Positions 9,221 to 33,094 of a stretch of DNA of 47,186 bases are shown here, one piece after another. Within the stretch, counting starts at the first letter, position 1. Every line of letters begins with the position of its first letter. The stretch is from a virus. The notes below the pieces were generated by a model that worked only from the letters and a program-made list of their open reading frames with translations, was not told the DNA's origin and did not search any database. The position numbers and the translations under genes are program-made. Location of the stretch: IMG/VR virus record IMGVR_UViG_3300027907_000020, positions 1 through 47,186 of that record; one strand, 5' to 3'.

Positions 9221-9751
9221 TTACGTATCGGCGGCCGTCCTCTCGAACACCGTGAACCATCGCGCGCGTGAGTTCCGCCCGCATCCGACTCCGACCGTTG
9301 CGACCTCTTGGCCCATCTTGCCTGGATGCGGCCACAGGTAATCGAGGACGCCGACGCGATCGCCTTCCTGCACTAGCATGAGCGCGCGTTTTAGTAACGG
9401 GTTCAAATCCGGCAACGTCCCGCGGCCGGTCGCGTACTTGTCGGCGTCCTCGTCGGTGTAGGGCCGATCGATCAGGACCGCAGCCCACAGCCCCGCGGGC
9501 AACGCGCCGCGAACGTCCATCAGAAAATCCGGCGAACACGCCGGATCGATGTCTACCGTCTTGTCGTTCGGGCCGACCCCGCGGTAAGGGTACTCGCGGA
9601 CCTTCCCCGCACACACGTGCAGTACGGGATCTGTCCGTCGAACCCCGAGCAACGCGCGCGCGCGATGCAGGAACCCGGCCGGATATGCGCCGTGGTACTT
9701 CACCTTGGCGCGCGCCAGAATCCAGACATCGGTGATCGGCCGGTAGTTCAT
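9221..9751 (-). CDS. Methyltransferase-like Rossmann-fold protein
   Basis: The protein has 176 residues. VLHVCAGKV resembles the SAM-binding strand and glycine loop, VDIDPACSPDF the acidic strand-2 position, and AVLIDRPYTDEDADKY a degenerate form of the catalytic (D/N)PPY strand. GDRVGVLDYLWPHPGK follows as a later strand. This order matches class I SAM-dependent methyltransferases. Because the first proline of DPPY is arginine, it may modify an unusual substrate or be inactive. It begins the distal early operon; its ATG directly follows the previous gene's stop. Confidence 0.58.
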   Translation of the reverse strand: MNYRPITDVWILARAKVKYHGAYPAGFLHRARALLGVRRTDPVLHVCAGKVREYPYRGVGPNDKTVDIDPACSPDFLMDVRGALPAGLWAAVLIDRPYTDEDADKYATGRGTLPDLNPLLKRALMLVQEGDRVGVLDYLWPHPGKMGQEVATVGVGCGRNSRARWFTVFERTAADT

Positions 9752-19421: not shown

Positions 19422-19565
19422 CTACCGGCCCATCGTTTGAATCAGGAGGACGATGCAGAGGAGGACGACCGCGACCCACAGAGGCGCGTACTTTTGCCCG
19501 GCCGCGGCGGCGACTGCACAGATCAACGCGATCACGACGAGCAACGGAACGAGTGTCAACGTCAT
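19422..19565 (-). CDS. 47-residue two-helix membrane peptide
   Basis: The ATG at 19565 overlaps the TGA of the endolysin gene (ATGA) and the frame ends at TAG. The peptide begins with a hydrophobic helix (LTLVPLLVVIALICAVAAAA), has a short QKYAP turn and a second hydrophobic helix (WVAVVLLCIVLLI). This is the size and topology of a small holin, antiholin or spanin-like component. Confidence 0.68.
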   Translation of the reverse strand: MTLTLVPLLVVIALICAVAAAAGQKYAPLWVAVVLLCIVLLIQTMGR

Positions 19566-19957
19566 GGTTTTTGCCTCACGAGTTCAAAGTGTCCGAGGTC
19601 CGGTTTTGCCGGCGGACCGAACCGGCCGCCCCATCGAATCCGAAACGGAGGATCGACGACGAGCGACTCGCCGATCTCGCCGATCCGCGCCCACACGGGA
19701 TCGGATCCGTTCCATTGCAATTTATCCGGCCCGTGGAGTTGATAGACCTCGAACGGCGCGACGTCGATCGCGTCGCCGACGAGATGTTTCGAGAACTTGA
19801 TCCAGGAGGTTCCGTTCGCGAGGTTCGCGGCATGTTCGGCCGGCGTCCGGAGCGTGTCGACGATCACGATCGGGATCCCGGCCTCGACGAGGCGCGCGAG
19901 GAGGGCCATCGCGATCGGCCGGAACTCCGGCGAGAGGTCGTCGAGGCGCCGACTCAC
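19562..19957 (-). CDS. M15-type peptidase endolysin
   Basis: The protein has 131 residues, with GTG at 19957 in a GTGA overlap. It cuts peptide bonds in peptidoglycan (L-alanyl-D-glutamate peptidase or D-Ala-D-Ala type). The zinc motif SKHLVGDAIDVAPF gives the first His and Asp, and GHFEL near the C-terminus gives the last His, as in the T5 endolysin family. The N-terminal helix and VDTLRTPAEH are also typical. No cell-wall-binding domain is present, which fits a Gram-negative host. It is flanked by small membrane proteins of the lysis cassette. Confidence 0.85.
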   Translation of the reverse strand: MSRRLDDLSPEFRPIAMALLARLVEAGIPIVIVDTLRTPAEHAANLANGTSWIKFSKHLVGDAIDVAPFEVYQLHGPDKLQWNGSDPVWARIGEIGESLVVDPPFRIRWGGRFGPPAKPDLGHFELVRQKP

Positions 19958-20136
19958 AAGATCCAACCTTTCAGGATCCGGACGCCGTAGATCAACACGA
20001 GGACGACGAGCGTCCCGAATCCGACATGCAACGCGAGCCGGAGTTCCGTTTCGCCCGGCATTGTGATCCGCGCGCGCCGCGCGATCAGCCCGAGCGCGAC
20101 GGCGACGGCGACAAGAATCCAAAACACGGCGATCAT
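19954..20136 (-). CDS. 60-residue two-helix membrane protein, holin candidate
   Basis: The protein begins with a hydrophobic helix (FWILVAVAVALGLIA), has a basic-polar loop (RRARITMPGETELRL) and a second helix (FGTLVVLVLIYGVRIL), ending in a short basic tail. Two helices directly before an endolysin gene is a common holin layout. The ATG at 20136 overlaps the PAS-protein stop. Confidence 0.7.
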   Translation of the reverse strand: MIAVFWILVAVAVALGLIARRARITMPGETELRLALHVGFGTLVVLVLIYGVRILKGWIL

Positions 20137-20537
20137 GCGGCGCGACCTCCGAGGTCGACCACGATTCCGATCACGACCGCGCGATCGTCGTCAATGGTCG
20201 TCGGCGAGAGTTGAATCGCGACCGGGAACGTCGAGCCGTCTTTCCGTTGTCCGAGGAGATCCATCCCGGGCGCGCCCATCGGTCGGATCCGCGGCGCGGC
20301 CGCAAACGTCGCGCGGTGTTGCCGATGTCGATCCCGAAGTGCCTCGGGAACGAATCGATCGATTGTCTCGCCGTCCAGGTCGTCGGCCGTGTACCCGAAC
20401 ATCGCGAGAAATGACGGCGACGCCGCGAGGACCTCGCCGCCGTCGGCATCGGCGACAACGATCGACGTCGATTGCCAGAGGCCCTCGAACAGAGACGCGC
20501 GATAGAGCATGAGTTCGAGGTTCGAGAACAGACTCAT
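20133..20537 (-). CDS. PAS-domain protein in lysis cassette
   Basis: The protein has 134 residues. From about residue 20 the sequence follows a PAS fold: TSIVVADADGGEVLAASPSF, then FLAMFGYTADDLDG, then DRFVPEALRDRHRQHRATF, then GQRKDGSTFPVAIQLSP and a final beta strand. PAS domains sense small ligands, light or redox state, or mediate protein contact. No kinase, cyclase or DNA-binding domain is attached. It is joined by ATGA overlaps to a membrane coiled-coil protein and the holin candidate, so a role in lysis timing is conceivable. Confidence 0.8.
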   Translation of the reverse strand: MSLFSNLELMLYRASLFEGLWQSTSIVVADADGGEVLAASPSFLAMFGYTADDLDGETIDRFVPEALRDRHRQHRATFAAAPRIRPMGAPGMDLLGQRKDGSTFPVAIQLSPTTIDDDRAVVIGIVVDLGGRAA

Positions 20538-27351: not shown

Positions 27352-30300
27352 TTACCCTCCGGCGGCGGCGCGTTCGATCGCCGACCCGAGTGAATGTGTG
27401 TTCAACGCGATCGCGCGCGCGAGGCCCTCGGCGACCTCTTTCGATTGCATCACGCGCCGGACGTCGGCGCCGTCCCACGCTTGGATCGTCGGCGAGTACT
27501 GGATCACGATCGACGGCGGTCCACTCGCGGCGCCGGCCGCGCGCGCGTCCGCGAGAGATTTTTTCCACTCCTCGAACGGCGCGTACACTTCCGGCCCACC
27601 TTCGCCGACGACCGCGAGCGTCGGGCGCGTGACGACGCCGCCGGCCGCCAGATGAGGAACGTCGAGGCCCGGCATGTCCGGCATTTCGACGCGGCCGCGG
27701 ATCGGGAACTCGAATCCGCCGCGGAACTTGTCGCGGATGCCTTGCGCGCCTTCGTCGGCCGCCTGCGGCAAACCTTTCGCGAGGAGGTCGCGGATCTCCC
27801 CGAGAATGTCTTTCATTTCTTTGAACGTGTCGTTCACGTCGCCGGTAAACGTGAACCGGTCGAGCGATTCGAGTTTGTTCCCGGTCGCGTCGACGAGTTG
27901 TCCGGCGTCGACCATTTGTTGCAGCCACGGACGGAGCGCGGCCGGGATCGACAAGCCGGCCGAGTCGGCGTTCGTGACAAGTTCCTGCATTTTCTCTTGC
28001 GCGTCGGTGAGAACCGCGCCCATGTCCGCGCCGGCGTCGTTGAACGTGACGAACGCGCGCGCGTACTGCATCGCGGTGTCGTCGAGTTTCGCCTGTTGAA
28101 ATCCTTTCCCGAGCGACGACAGTTTGACGCCGAGGCCCTCGGCCATCGACTGCATGGTTTGCCACGACGGCGCGCCGGCGAATCCCTCCAGGAGGCGGCG
28201 GTGTTCTTCGGTGAGGCCCTTCGCCTTGAGGAGTTCGGCGATAAATGGTTGTAACGCCGCCGGCGCCTTGCCTCCGAATTGTTCGGCCGCGGTCGCGAGG
28301 CGCCCGAACGCGCCGTCGAGGGCCTCTTTCAGTTTTTGCGCGTCGGCCTCGGCGTCTTTCAGGAACCGACGAACGTCCTCGATCGCGCGTTTGGTCGCGC
28401 CCTCGTCGTCGCGTTTCTGCGCGCGGTCGAGCGCGGCCGCAAGCTGCGCGCCTTTCGGCCCCATGTCCTTGAGATGTTGCGACAACGCGCCGAGGTTCTC
28501 GAACCCGAGTTCGGTTGTCGCGAACGCGTCTTGCATGTCGCGCGCGACGTTGCGCCCGAGCGTCTTGAACGCCGCCCCGAGTTTCCCGAGCAACGGGCCG
28601 AGGAGGGCGCCGACGCCCGGGAGGAACGACGTGATCGCCTCGCCGAGGAATTTCCCGAGGCCCGATTTCCCCTTGAGGACGCCGCCGAAATTCTCGGCCA
28701 TTGATTGACCGATCATCATTCCGCCCGAGGCGCCGATCGATCGCCACACGTCGCCGCCGCCGGTGACGGCCGCGAGGATGGTCGGCCCGAGGGATTTCCC
28801 GAAATCGATCGCCTTGCCTTTGAGCGACGTAAACATCGTCGCCATGAGCGACGGCGCGTTGCCGATCGACTTGAGGCCGCCGCCGACCGACCCGAGAATG
28901 TCGAGCGGGTTTTTCGACATCTTGCCGGAGAACTCCGCGACCATTTTCTGTATCGCGAGATACCCGGCGAGCGTGTCTTTCCACTCGACGTACTGCATCG
29001 AAATTTTCGGACCGATGTCGAGGATCGCGCCGAGGTCCGCGTTGACCTTGGGTAACAGTTCGTGCAGTTTGGAATGCTTGAGGTACACCTCATGCGCCTC
29101 GGCCGACAGGAGCGGCAGACCGCCGGCGTCGACGAGCGGTTTGATCTGCTTCATCATCCGCGCGACGACCTCGGGATTTTTTTTCTCCTCGGCCGTCATT
29201 TTCGCGATCGATTCGTTGAGCTTGTCGACGTCCTGTTTCAGTTTCCGGCCCGACATTTCGTCGGCCAGATCGGCGACGGCCTTTCGATGCGCCTCGGCCG
29301 CGGCCGCCGCCTTTTTCTGTGCGTCGGTGAGTTCGCCGGTTGCACTCGCGGCAAACTTCGCCGAGCGCGCGAGATGTTCTTTCGCCTCCTTGAGTCGTTT
29401 CGAGGTTTTTTCCGCCTCGGCCTCGGCCGTGTTCGATTTCTTGACCTCCTCCATGTACGCGGCGTGTGCCATCGACGCGCCGCCGAATCCGCCCGAGAAA
29501 AATCCGGCCGTCGTCGCCTTGACGTCGCCGAGGAATTTCGAGAACCCGGACATCGCGGTTCCGAGGTTCTTCATGACGGAGGACAGGAACTCGGCCGAAT
29601 AGATCGTGACGTCGTTGAAAAAGTTCTCCCACGCCTGATTTGCGTCGGCGAGTCGTTGAACCGTTTCCTCCGACATGATGTGCGCGCCGTCGGCCAGTTC
29701 GAGGAATCCGGATCGGATCGCCGGGAGGAGTTCGACGCCTGATTTTCCGAGCATCTTGAACGCGGCGTCGGTTTGCATCGCCTCATTCGGCATTTTTTCG
29801 AGCGCGGCGATGATGTCGCGGAACGCCTCCTCGGGTTTCTTTTTGCGGAGTTCCTCGATCGAGAGGCCGGCGGCCTTGAACGCGGCGACCGTCGATTTCT
29901 CCGGCGCCGCGAGGTTCCGGTTCATTTCGACGATCGATTTCGTGACGTTCTCAATATCGGCGCCGCCTTGCTTGGCGGCAAACGTGAACCGTTGTGCGGC
30001 CTCGGCCGACACTCCCATTTTTTGGGACATGTCCTGTATGTTGTCGGCCGTCGAGAGGATCGATTTGCCGAACGCGACGAGCGCGCCGGCGCCGACCGTG
30101 ACACCGAACGCGGCGGCCAGTCCCCGGACGCCGCCGACCATCGACCCGAGTTTCGAGTTGAATCCGTCGGCCGATCCCGAGACGCCGGCGAGGCCGCGGC
30201 CGAACTTGTCGAGGTTGCCGGAGGCGCCGCCGACGTCGGAACTGACGCCGCGGATCCGACCCTTGAGGGCCTCGAATTTCGAGTCGGTCTTGTCGAGATC

Positions 30301-30363
30301 CCTAAAGAATTGAGCGGAATCCGTCTTGAGTTCGAGGACGGCGCGCCCGAGGCCGGCCGGCAT
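27352..30363 (-). CDS. Tape measure protein
   Basis: The protein has 1003 residues, with ATG at 30363 behind GGAGG. The N-terminal 240 residues are the usual tape-measure head (FFRDLDKTDSKFEALKGRIR, a hydrophobic GLAAAFGVTVGAGALVAFG, then SAEAAQRFTFAAKQGG). Charged helices and coiled coils follow, with hydrophobic patches around residues 450-600 (GSVGGGLKSIGNA, ITSFLPGVGALLGPLLG). The C-terminal part holds VVTRPTLAVVGEGGPEVYAPF. No lytic transglycosylase motif is obvious. Its length predicts a tail of roughly 150 nm, by the usual 0.15 nm per residue. Confidence 0.9.
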   Translation of the reverse strand: MPAGLGRAVLELKTDSAQFFRDLDKTDSKFEALKGRIRGVSSDVGGASGNLDKFGRGLAGVSGSADGFNSKLGSMVGGVRGLAAAFGVTVGAGALVAFGKSILSTADNIQDMSQKMGVSAEAAQRFTFAAKQGGADIENVTKSIVEMNRNLAAPEKSTVAAFKAAGLSIEELRKKKPEEAFRDIIAALEKMPNEAMQTDAAFKMLGKSGVELLPAIRSGFLELADGAHIMSEETVQRLADANQAWENFFNDVTIYSAEFLSSVMKNLGTAMSGFSKFLGDVKATTAGFFSGGFGGASMAHAAYMEEVKKSNTAEAEAEKTSKRLKEAKEHLARSAKFAASATGELTDAQKKAAAAAEAHRKAVADLADEMSGRKLKQDVDKLNESIAKMTAEEKKNPEVVARMMKQIKPLVDAGGLPLLSAEAHEVYLKHSKLHELLPKVNADLGAILDIGPKISMQYVEWKDTLAGYLAIQKMVAEFSGKMSKNPLDILGSVGGGLKSIGNAPSLMATMFTSLKGKAIDFGKSLGPTILAAVTGGGDVWRSIGASGGMMIGQSMAENFGGVLKGKSGLGKFLGEAITSFLPGVGALLGPLLGKLGAAFKTLGRNVARDMQDAFATTELGFENLGALSQHLKDMGPKGAQLAAALDRAQKRDDEGATKRAIEDVRRFLKDAEADAQKLKEALDGAFGRLATAAEQFGGKAPAALQPFIAELLKAKGLTEEHRRLLEGFAGAPSWQTMQSMAEGLGVKLSSLGKGFQQAKLDDTAMQYARAFVTFNDAGADMGAVLTDAQEKMQELVTNADSAGLSIPAALRPWLQQMVDAGQLVDATGNKLESLDRFTFTGDVNDTFKEMKDILGEIRDLLAKGLPQAADEGAQGIRDKFRGGFEFPIRGRVEMPDMPGLDVPHLAAGGVVTRPTLAVVGEGGPEVYAPFEEWKKSLADARAAGAASGPPSIVIQYSPTIQAWDGADVRRVMQSKEVAEGLARAIALNTHSLGSAIERAAAGG

Positions 30364-30366
30364 GTC

Positions 30367-30903
30367 CTATACCTCCGGCCCGGCGATCGCCGCCTCGCCT
30401 GCGGCCGCCTGGAGGGTCGGCGCCTCGACCTGGACGTCAACGCGCGAGATCAGGGCCTCGGCGCCGCCGCGGAACACGACGCGCCGGGCCTGGAGGCCGT
30501 CAGAGGTCCGGCCGGGAGGCGCCGCGGAGGCGACCCGTTGCCACGTCTCGATCGCCTTGCGGGCGCCCTCCGGCGACCGCCAGAGGCCGATCCCGACGCC
30601 GGTCCGTTCGGCGGCCGCGATCGACGCCTCGGCCGTGAGTCTCGGCAGCATCCGAACGTACGCGCGAACGAGGCCGGTCGGCATCGTCGTTAACCATCCG
30701 ACGGGATCGCCGCCGTAATAAGCCTGGAGTCTCGGGACGAGTTCGCCCCAATCGGCGGGACCGCCGGCGCCTGATCCGCCGCCGGCGCCGGCGTCGGGTT
30801 CGGTCGCGTCGGCGGCGTCCAAAAAGTGACACAAATCTCGAACCGCATGTACCACGGGAGGAGGCGGTGTACCGCGTCGGGCGCGATCAGGATGTCGCGA
30901 CAC
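30367..30903 (-). CDS. Tail chaperone frameshift extension (T part)
   Basis: This open frame encodes the C-terminal part of a G-T-type fusion. It lacks a ribosome site at its first ATG. It is shifted -1 relative to the 30690-31157 frame, and the ribosome can enter it at the run of five T (minus strand) at 30821-30825, continuing FLDAADATEPDAG. Beyond that it has DWGELVPRLQAYYGGDP, WLTTMPTGLVRAYVRMLPRL and a beta-rich end. In lambda, gpGT bridges the tape measure and tail tube proteins. Confidence 0.72.
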   Translation of the reverse strand: MSRHPDRARRGTPPPPVVHAVRDLCHFLDAADATEPDAGAGGGSGAGGPADWGELVPRLQAYYGGDPVGWLTTMPTGLVRAYVRMLPRLTAEASIAAAERTGVGIGLWRSPEGARKAIETWQRVASAAPPGRTSDGLQARRVVFRGGAEALISRVDVQVEAPTLQAAAGEAAIAGPEV

Positions 30904-31157
30904 ATTTTGTCGAGGAGTGATTCGAGTTCCTCGGCCTCGGCGTCGGTGAGTTTCTCGTCGTCCATCGCCTGCATGAGTTCGACCGTCCGCGTCCGCTGGC
31001 GAGCGAATTTTTGCAACGGGAGGATCGGCATCATCGATCGACGCTTGAGTTCGTACGCCGTCCCGTTGATCGTGACGGTGTCCGGCGTGAGTGTGTTGAG
31101 GTCGAGGATCGCGCGCCCGGCGGCCCGGGCCTGTTCGGTATCGGTTGTGTCGGCCAT
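30690..31157 (-). CDS. Tail assembly chaperone (G part)
   Basis: The protein has 155 residues. It begins with a soluble helical-beta domain (LTPDTVTINGTAYELKRRSM), an acidic helix (EKLTDAEAEELESLLDKMC) and LLPWYMRFEICVTF, then continues in zero frame as a proline-rich tail. This is the arrangement of the short tail chaperone directly before a tape measure gene. The slippery ACTTTTTGG lies after the IC codons. Zero-frame translation ends at 30690, about 45 residues beyond the shift site. Confidence 0.75.
   Translation of the reverse strand: MADTTDTEQARAAGRAILDLNTLTPDTVTINGTAYELKRRSMMPILPLQKFARQRTRTVELMQAMDDEKLTDAEAEELESLLDKMCRDILIAPDAVHRLLPWYMRFEICVTFWTPPTRPNPTPAPAADQAPAVPPIGANSSRDSRLITAAIPSDG
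30818..30827 (-). promoter_or_regulatory. Probable -1 programmed frameshift site
   Basis: On the minus strand the zero-frame codons are GTC ACT TTT TGG, containing five consecutive T at 30821-30825. A -1 shift on this run joins the chaperone to the 30367-30903 frame. The position, frame direction and gene order match the G/GT system of lambda-type tails. Confidence 0.65.
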
Positions 31158-31212: not shown

Positions 31213-31554
31213 TCAGGTCGCCCGACAGGCCGCCACGGTCACAGAGGCGGCGGCCGAGTAGGTGATCGACGCGATACCGGAGGCGTTCGCGAACCGGCCG
31301 GCGTCGTCGAGCGGAATGAATTTCTCGGCGCCGGCGGCGACGGCGACGACGCGATCGTGTGCGACGTTCGAGACGCCGAACGAGCACGGGTTTTGCGCGA
31401 CGATCGTCACGTTGATCGATCCGCCCGATGCGTTCTTCACGTACAGGAGTTCTTTTCCGGTACACGGCATCGTGTCGCCGCCGCCGGCCGCCGCGACGGG
31501 AACAAAGAGCGCGCCGCCGGTCGCGAACAACGATTGCACTGTCAAGAGCGCCAT
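31213..31554 (-). CDS. Small structural (decoration-like) protein
   Basis: The protein has 113 residues, with ATG at 31554 behind GGAGG. The sequence is beta-rich (ELLYVKNASGGSINVTIVAQ, DRVVAVAAGAEKFIPLDD), a pattern I recall from small phage capsid or tail decoration proteins. Three cysteines are present. A virion component is likely. It follows the bacteriocin-like gene and precedes the chaperones. Confidence 0.68.
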   Translation of the reverse strand: MALLTVQSLFATGGALFVPVAAAGGGDTMPCTGKELLYVKNASGGSINVTIVAQNPCSFGVSNVAHDRVVAVAAGAEKFIPLDDAGRFANASGIASITYSAAASVTVAACRAT

Positions 31555-31587: not shown

Positions 31588-32265
31588 TCATCGTCGACGT
31601 GGATCGTACGGGCCGTACTGTTCCTCGCACATCCCGTCGCACGTGTTGAGCCACAAAGTTCCGCACCATGACGTCTGATCGCACCATTGGTTCGCGACGC
31701 ACACGTAGTACGGAGAATTGCACCACTCGAACCAGTCGTCGGACGCGCATTGACAGTTCCCGAACGTCGACGCGGCGGCCGTGAACGTATTTCGCAACGC
31801 GTCGGAGAGGTACACGCGGAGCGCGGCGAGGGAACGCGTCGGCCGAACGGCGCCGCCGACGGTCGCCACGATCGGGCGCGCGCCCTCTTTGCCGAACAGG
31901 GTGATCGCTTCCATCGCGAGATTCGTCGCGACCTCGCGCCGGCGCGCGACATCGCCGAGGACCTCCGGCGTGATCTGCGCGATCGCCCGGTCGATGAATG
32001 TTTGGTCGAGGTTCCGGAACGTCAAGAGATGCGCGCGGAGGATCTCGGCCTTTGTCTCGACCGCGAGCGCGCCGAAAATACTCCGACGTTGCGCCTCCGG
32101 GTACGCTTCAAGTGCGTCGAGCGTCGTCGGCAGACTGCCGGCGTGTGCGGTCGTCCAGGCGGACACGCGTTTGCACGTCGGCGAGCGATCGGCCGCGTCG
32201 CGAACGACGACGAACGCCGGGAGGACGATCAAGGTACTCACGAGGGCGAATAGTCTGAGTTTCAT
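31588..32265 (-). CDS. Fulvocin C-like secreted bacteriocin precursor (candidate)
   Basis: The protein has 225 residues, with ATG at 32265 behind GGAGG. Residues 1-21 are a signal peptide (LRLFALVSTLIVLPAFVVV). The middle contains LEAYPEAQRRSIFGAL and AEILRAHLLTFRNLD, resembling the conserved leader region of proteins called fulvocin C-related. The last 55 residues are cysteine-rich with eight cysteines (171, 173, 182, 189, 195, 201, 209, 213), the number in fulvocin C, a myxobacterial peptide with four disulfides. It lies inside the tail operon, coupled by ATGA. A structural disulfide protein is the main alternative. Confidence 0.68.
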   Translation of the reverse strand: MKLRLFALVSTLIVLPAFVVVRDAADRSPTCKRVSAWTTAHAGSLPTTLDALEAYPEAQRRSIFGALAVETKAEILRAHLLTFRNLDQTFIDRAIAQITPEVLGDVARRREVATNLAMEAITLFGKEGARPIVATVGGAVRPTRSLAALRVYLSDALRNTFTAAASTFGNCQCASDDWFEWCNSPYYVCVANQWCDQTSWCGTLWLNTCDGMCEEQYGPYDPRRR

Positions 32266-32456
32266 CGGGCCTCCTGTTTGTCGGTCGGCGTCGGCGTCAC
32301 GCGATGGATCACGATGCCGGCCGCCGCGAGTTGTCGTTCGACCTCGGCGAGCGCGGCGGCGTCCATCCCGAGCGCGATCCGGATCTGACGAATGTCCCGT
32401 TTGCGCTGGACGATCCGTTGCGCGAGCCGCGCGTGTTCCGCTTGCAACGAATGCAC
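32262..32456 (-). CDS. Short coiled-coil protein
   Basis: The protein has 64 residues from GTG at 32456, with no strong ribosome site. It is a nearly continuous helix with heptad character (AEHARLAQRIVQRKRDIRQI), ending in a proline/threonine tail. It is translationally coupled (ATGA) to the bacteriocin-like gene. It could be an immunity, chaperone or tail component; the start is uncertain. Confidence 0.52.
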   Translation of the reverse strand: MHSLQAEHARLAQRIVQRKRDIRQIRIALGMDAAALAEVERQLAAAGIVIHRVTPTPTDKQEAR

Positions 32457-32467
32457 GGACGTGTCGA

Positions 32468-33094
32468 CTAGACCGGGAGTGCCGACTGCGCCTCGAGTAC
32501 GCCGAAACGCTCGAACTCGTTCGCGGCCGCGGTGTTCACCATCGCCGAGAACTCGATCGCGAGCGCGGCCGGCGTGTCCTTTTTGAACGGGAACTCCGTC
32601 GACGCGGAATTGATCGCGATCGGCATCCAGAGTTGTGACCACATCGCCGTCACGTACGGCGACGGGAACCGGATGAGAACCGCAAACGACGCGACGCCCG
32701 GGCCTTTCGAGAGGCCGATCTTTTTGTATCCGGCCGTGCCGGCGCCGGCGGCAACGGTCGTGATCGCGTTCGCGTTCAAAATGTTCGCCCATGCTTCGAG
32801 TGTCATGTCGGCGACGTTGACCCGGGCCATCGCATCTTCCAGGGTCCGGAACGCTTTCCGCGATCCCGTGTCGCCGAGCGACCGCCACTTAACGACATCC
32901 TGTTGCATTTGAATCGTGACGCCGTCCTCGGTGTAATTGAGCGAGAGCGAGGTTCCGACCTTCGCCCACGGCGCGATCGGATCCGGCAACGGATGCGCCG
33001 TCATGACCGGGCGCGCGGTGAGTGCGGGCGCGATCCAGAGATCCGCCGGCGAGGCGATGATCTCGTACGGGGCCATCGTGTTCCAATTCGGCAT
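32468..33094 (-). CDS. Major tail tube protein
   Basis: The protein has 208 residues, with ATG at 33094 behind AGGAG. It is a beta-rich single-domain protein (SLSLNYTEDGVTIQMQQDVV, ASFAVLIRFPSPYVTAMWSQ, ALAIEFSAMVNTAAANEFER) of the size and position of a tail tube subunit, after the terminator-like and gpZ-like genes. Polymerisation around the tape measure is expected. Confidence 0.78.
   Translation of the reverse strand: MPNWNTMAPYEIIASPADLWIAPALTARPVMTAHPLPDPIAPWAKVGTSLSLNYTEDGVTIQMQQDVVKWRSLGDTGSRKAFRTLEDAMARVNVADMTLEAWANILNANAITTVAAGAGTAGYKKIGLSKGPGVASFAVLIRFPSPYVTAMWSQLWMPIAINSASTEFPFKKDTPAALAIEFSAMVNTAAANEFERFGVLEAQSALPV

Follow-up and report, generated by a model that had tools for sequence, protein, structure and literature searches.

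The window, one IMG/VR phage record analysed over its full length of 47,186 nucleotides (IMGVR_UViG_3300027907_000020), carries within its tail operon a gene that we read as a moron-like accessory precursor of the fulvocin C family, and we give interference by a bacteriocin-like cargo peptide about even odds as its role (probability roughly 0.5). The gene (31588-32265, minus strand; ATG at 32265, TGA at 31588) encodes a protein of 225 aa that matched the NCBIfam profile NF033852, "bacteriocin fulvocin C-related protein", from position 1 to position 150 of 150 with 62.2 bits (E = 9.6e-17), against a curated NCBI cut-off of 35 bits. An initial annotation of the same DNA had proposed both this ORF and its relationship to fulvocin C; the ORF was recovered at those coordinates on the minus strand, and the match to the whole profile supported the family assignment. 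A six-frame search of the record found the gene back with E = 1.6e-18.

The precursor gene and its tail operon

The window phage is a soil-type bacterial virus with a GpA-type terminase, a lambda-type portal, a capsid-protease fusion and a tape measure protein. No tyrosine integrase was found in it, which leaves a benefit through lysogeny unsupported. A host search with the window capsid protein among 240 Gemmatimonadota and 237 Acidobacteriota genomes returned distant matches only. The window also encodes a DNA methyltransferase (9221-9751, minus strand; phrog_3816, E = 1.9e-34).

The tail genes are all encoded on the minus strand. The putative tail tube protein (32468-33094), assigned from gene order, is 41-53% identical to the genes in the corresponding position of related phage contigs, and it is followed by a small gene of ~64 aa with an inferred GTG start (32262-32456), homologues of which follow the tail tube in related phages. 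The TGA of this small gene overlaps the precursor ATG (ATGA), and an AGGAGG Shine-Dalgarno-like site (32270-32275, minus strand) lies within it, 4 bases before that ATG; the precursor start is well supported because of these two features. Directly downstream of the precursor is a tail protein gene (31213-31554; phrog_16194, E = 6.7e-16), followed by a putative tail assembly chaperone (30690-31157), assigned from gene order and from its counterpart ahead of the tape measure gene in two contigs (L050 and L055), with which it shares 29-35% identity, and by the tail tape measure protein (27352-30363; phrog_2276, E = 1.7e-17). The putative tube and chaperone had no PHROG match and no Pfam match above the cut-off. 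The position between tube and chaperone and the ATGA coupling, both noted initially, therefore hold in outline, but the coupled partner is the small gene and not the tube itself, and the phrog_16194 gene intervenes before the chaperone. The precursor gene has a GC content of 64.6% and a GC3 of 80.5%, equal to those of the flanking tail genes, and is thus no compositional outlier.

The gene order in contigs with related capsid or tube genes was tube, small gene, in some cases a gene of ~110 aa, chaperone and tape measure, and none of these contigs contained an NF033852 gene. The search at the same place in related phages, which the initial annotation had suggested, thus found the operon kept and the gene absent; the precursor is therefore accessory cargo, inserted between the small gene and the phrog_16194 gene and tied into the operon through its ATGA overlap. 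No transporter, immunity, protease, propeller or redox partner was seen beside the precursor among the neighbouring window genes. Dedicated immunity and export genes are common beside bacteriocin precursors but not obligatory.

Architecture and family relationships of the precursor

The hydrophobic N-terminus (residues 1-22; 32200-32265, minus strand) is signal-peptide-like, and most homologues have a similar hydrophobic start. The Kyte-Doolittle peak covered residues 3-21 with an average of 2.4; on this hydropathy profile, the signal peptide of the initial annotation is a candidate, a hydrophobic stretch of putative export type. It is followed by a helical leader (residues 30-134; 31864-32178, minus strand), likewise anticipated, which AlphaFold2 modelled as confident helices with pLDDT mostly 84-97. 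The leader motifs LPTTL..., (R)RxIF and FGKEGARPIVATVG were common to the precursor and its homologues. The C-terminal Cys-rich tail (residues 169-225; 31591-31761, minus strand) reads GNCQCASDDWFEWCNSPYYVCVANQWCDQTSWCGTLWLNTCDGMCEEQYGPYDPRRR and comprises 57 residues, two more than first reported, with the expected eight Cys (positions 171, 173, 182, 189, 195, 201, 209 and 213); residues 1-168 contain a single Cys (Cys31). At the Cys frequency of the phage itself (0.85%), the binomial probability of at least eight Cys in 57 residues is ~3e-8. The tail is acidic, with a net charge of -5.

The AlphaFold2 model, built from 14 sequences, had a mean pLDDT of 75 and a pTM of 0.71. Confidence was low around residues 141-168, and the tail was predicted as short strands with medium confidence; residues 163-225 contained no predicted helix of four or more residues. 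The model suggests an architecture of leader, linker and core. Structure search returned nothing significant (best E 2.8), neither the PDB nor the BFVD viral structures gave a significant match, a sequence-profile search of the PDB gave chance helical matches only, and the precursor had no match in Pfam or PHROGs. None of these four collections therefore linked the precursor to a known virion or structural disulfide family.

The NF033852 match begins at precursor residue 60 and runs through the leader. We aligned 19 family members drawn from Gemmatimonadota, Acidobacteriota, Bacteroidota, Streptomyces plasmids and three phages. Seven of the eight tail Cys columns were invariant and the eighth was kept in 18/19 members, with all eight Cys of the precursor in register with the family. 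Identity between the precursor and other members was at most ~30-32%. In a tree of the members, where two branches only were starred and few were well supported, the precursor was not firmly placed and the three phage genes did not group together.

Among sampled genomes, NF033852 exceeded its cut-off in 5/200 Gemmatimonadota, 4/297 Acidobacteriota and 2/297 Bacteroidota. None of 297 Actinomycetota genomes scored above it; since Streptomyces plasmids carry members, this zero does not mean that the phylum is without the family. The search of 399 Pseudomonadota genomes likewise yielded no member and returned no match anywhere. Protein-pattern scans of the viral_contigs and genome_contigs sets found no precursor relative, nor did a five-sequence profile run against viral_contigs.

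Fulvocin C sensu stricto has four disulfides and a mature peptide of ~45 residues, and the Cys pattern of the precursor presumably resembles that of fulvocin C. The comparison used the mature fulvocin C sequence alone and composition-preserving shuffles; this sequence scored z = 9.5 with the member from the Mu-like phage (L194) and z = 11.2 with a Streptomyces plasmid member (L056), but only z = 3.1 with the window tail. Fulvocin C itself is, to our knowledge, the sole member of the family characterised biochemically. The NF033852 name is an annotation defined by sequence, and papers retrieved with "fulvocin" from the open literature were mostly unrelated to the peptide, with no title or abstract among them on phages; the family has had almost no experimental follow-up in the literature searched. 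The work on fulvocin C is that of Tsai and Hirsch 1981, as cited in PMC8708641.

Members in other phages and in bacterial genomes

A DNA motif search gave 37 matches, two of which were true phage members; the remainder were chance matches or other Cys-rich frames. One of the two is encoded by a 45.7 kb Bacteroidetes-type phage (G015; IMGVR_UViG_3300015203_000005), in which a terminase, a head protease, a virion structural protein and a tail spike were matched. The precursor gene of this phage (19352-20011), with 75.6 bits to NF033852, is located in the late region between tail-fibre-type genes and an M15 peptidase gene, and it also shares an ATGA overlap with the preceding gene. The initial annotation knew of no phage tail operon with such a gene; the placement is indeed unusual, but this second ATGA-coupled member in a tail-fibre/lysis region means that it is not unique. 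The other member belongs to a 43.3 kb Mu-like phage (G016; IMGVR_UViG_3300022223_000010) with a Mu-type transposase, a Mu-like capsid protease and a tape measure protein. This precursor (NF033852 93.9 bits) is followed by a weakly matched six-bladed beta-propeller gene, and the pair sits between Mu-type genes (transposase, capsid, tape measure) in a non-tail position.

Four queries against 50,697 deposited phages retrieved no precursor relative. The single weak match, in a Psychrobacter phage, was rejected because the gene is annotated as Mu-like prophage I protein. The presence of family members in at least two further, unrelated viruses suggests that phages acquired the family more than once, and such repeated capture is likely from the sequences at hand, with the three phage genes ungrouped in a tree of few supported branches.

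Two Gemmatimonadota genomes have, directly or almost directly after the precursor, a propeller-like gene, an ABC ATPase gene and a partner gene of ~260-280 aa, which had no Pfam match and is read as a putative permease. At a third locus, a propeller-like gene is flanked by two precursors. In one Acidobacteriota genome the gene immediately downstream of the precursor encodes an ABC ATPase, and one Bacteroidota genome has, next to the precursor but on the opposite strand, genes for a thioredoxin, an ABC ATPase and an ABC-2 permease. Four loci (L236, L238, L241 and L245) had no transporter beside the precursor in the stretches examined. The propeller-like gene recurs beside family genes in three Gemmatimonadota loci (L235, L237 and L239) and in the Mu-like phage (L194), which thus shows the same pairing as the Gemmatimonadota chromosomes; the phage copy had a weak PF17170 match. 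Its product is possibly a processing, immunity or binding partner. These neighbourhoods of transporter, thioredoxin and propeller-like genes would fit an exported, disulfide-rich and possibly self-toxic peptide.

The Streptomyces plasmid members (L003, L004, L006, L056 and L057) begin with an extension containing a CxxC-like motif (FDASCGTCREV, FNASCALCKEV), after which come an internal twin-arginine-like signal and the fulvocin-type leader. The extensions of two of these members matched no named Pfam domain, so that the thioredoxin/DCC-like impression given by FDASCGTCREV is unproven. On NZ_CP108310.1, two tandem family genes (L006 and L059) have a near-identical extension and leader and differing Cys-rich tails, resembling diversifying bacteriocin precursors.

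Proposed function, rival readings and known systems

As far as sequence comparison can indicate, the gene most likely gives rise, late in infection, to an antibacterial peptide that is exported and disulfide-bonded. The precursor would be transcribed and translated with the tail genes, and its hydrophobic N-terminus would send it through Sec to the periplasm or the outside. Outside the cytoplasm the eight Cys would form disulfides and the leader would be removed, leaving a peptide of ~50 residues that may damage bacterial envelopes and that host lysis would release onto neighbouring bacteria. A toxin made late in a dying cell could do without immunity, which would account for the absence of partner genes. 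Several points count against this bacteriocin reading: the low identity to other members (at most 30-32%), the absence of a transporter, immunity, protease or propeller partner, and the low z score of the window tail against fulvocin C. Moreover, a peptide that kills close relatives would deprive the phage of its own hosts.

The dying-cell argument also allows action on the envelope of the infected cell, and this is the main rival. Here the peptide would act as a functional analogue of the disruptins, destabilising the cell surface or outer membrane when infection ends, or would block superinfection; we hold this only tentatively. Its attraction lies in the late-operon place and ATGA overlap in two unrelated phages (the window phage and G015), in the G015 copy lying between tail-fibre-type genes and an M15 peptidase, and in the needlessness of an immunity gene. 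Disruptins are phage-encoded antimicrobial peptides that aid outer-membrane disruption, and as antimicrobial-peptide-like molecules such as that of PhiKT they are hard to predict (PMC12819732). Like them, the precursor is phage-encoded, and its peptide, possibly active on membranes, would be made during the lytic cycle, but the PhiKT disruptin is a short amphipathic LL-37-like helix (PMC12819732), unlike the acidic, eight-Cys window tail, which is preceded by a long leader and an N-terminus of putative export type. The window gene is also ~12 kb from the putative lysis region, which contains an M15-like peptidase (19562-20122, minus strand; PF13539, E = 1.2e-4, just below the cut-off), and related phages manage without the gene.

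A host-benefit or neutral cargo with no antibacterial function, such as a secreted structural, binding or signalling peptide, would mean that the bacteriocin name has been over-extended from fulvocin C. The sequence-based definition of the family, its one biochemically characterised member and the several chromosomal members with no adjoining transporter in the stretches examined leave room for this, but other members repeatedly have ABC transporter, thioredoxin or propeller-like genes beside them, and we consider it unlikely. Least likely is a tail-associated disulfide protein serving tail structure or adsorption, the virion component offered as an alternative in the initial annotation: the gene lies inside the tail operon and adjoins the phrog_16194 gene, but its product has a hydrophobic N-terminus of putative export type and no virion-family match in PHROGs, the PDB or BFVD, it is missing from related phages that share the tail operon, and members occur in bacterial genomes with no evident phage context and at a non-tail position in the Mu-like phage.

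With the fulvocin C-related family NF033852, the precursor shares the full-length profile match, the eight-Cys C-terminal tail and a leader of ~130 residues. It differs from other NF033852 members in being phage-encoded within a late structural operon, with no adjoining transporter, propeller or redox partner and with identity of at most ~30%. The bacteriocins known from phages are for the most part lysogenic-conversion clusters carried by temperate phages. Sublancin 168 is an antibacterial peptide of the Bacillus prophage SPbeta, a temperate phage that encodes the immunity protein SunI and in which sunA is under several host regulators (PMC6391423); phage-borne bacteriocin clusters are also the subject of Dragos et al. 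2021, as cited in PMC10864542. The window phage resembles SPbeta in bearing an antibacterial-type peptide precursor, but in it the precursor stands by itself and overlaps a morphogenesis operon, and no tyrosine integrase turned up. Phage-borne bacteriocins are therefore already known; what is new is that a precursor stands alone and is coupled to a structural operon, and that the family recurs in unrelated phages. A bacteriocin-type precursor that overlaps tail genes, together with a relative in the late region of an unrelated phage, suggests that phages may deploy such peptides in lytic infection. More speculatively, fulvocin-family precursors could be a recurrent phage weapon or lysis tool, that is, stand-alone, late disulfide peptides captured from bacterial bacteriocin loci by unrelated tailed phages and used with no immunity or export partners on the envelope of the dying host or on neighbours at lysis. 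The precursor provides a defined peptide for the question of what phages with no recognisable spanins or disruptins use on the envelope.

Stand-alone signalling domains were observed near putative lysis genes in two unrelated phages. In the window, a lone PAS-domain gene (20133-20537, minus strand; PF13426, E = 2.7e-12) adjoins the M15-like peptidase and small membrane proteins. In G015, a response-regulator gene standing alone (PF00072, E = 7.9e-19) lies near the M15 peptidase (L199, 3398-3766 and 4107-4574).
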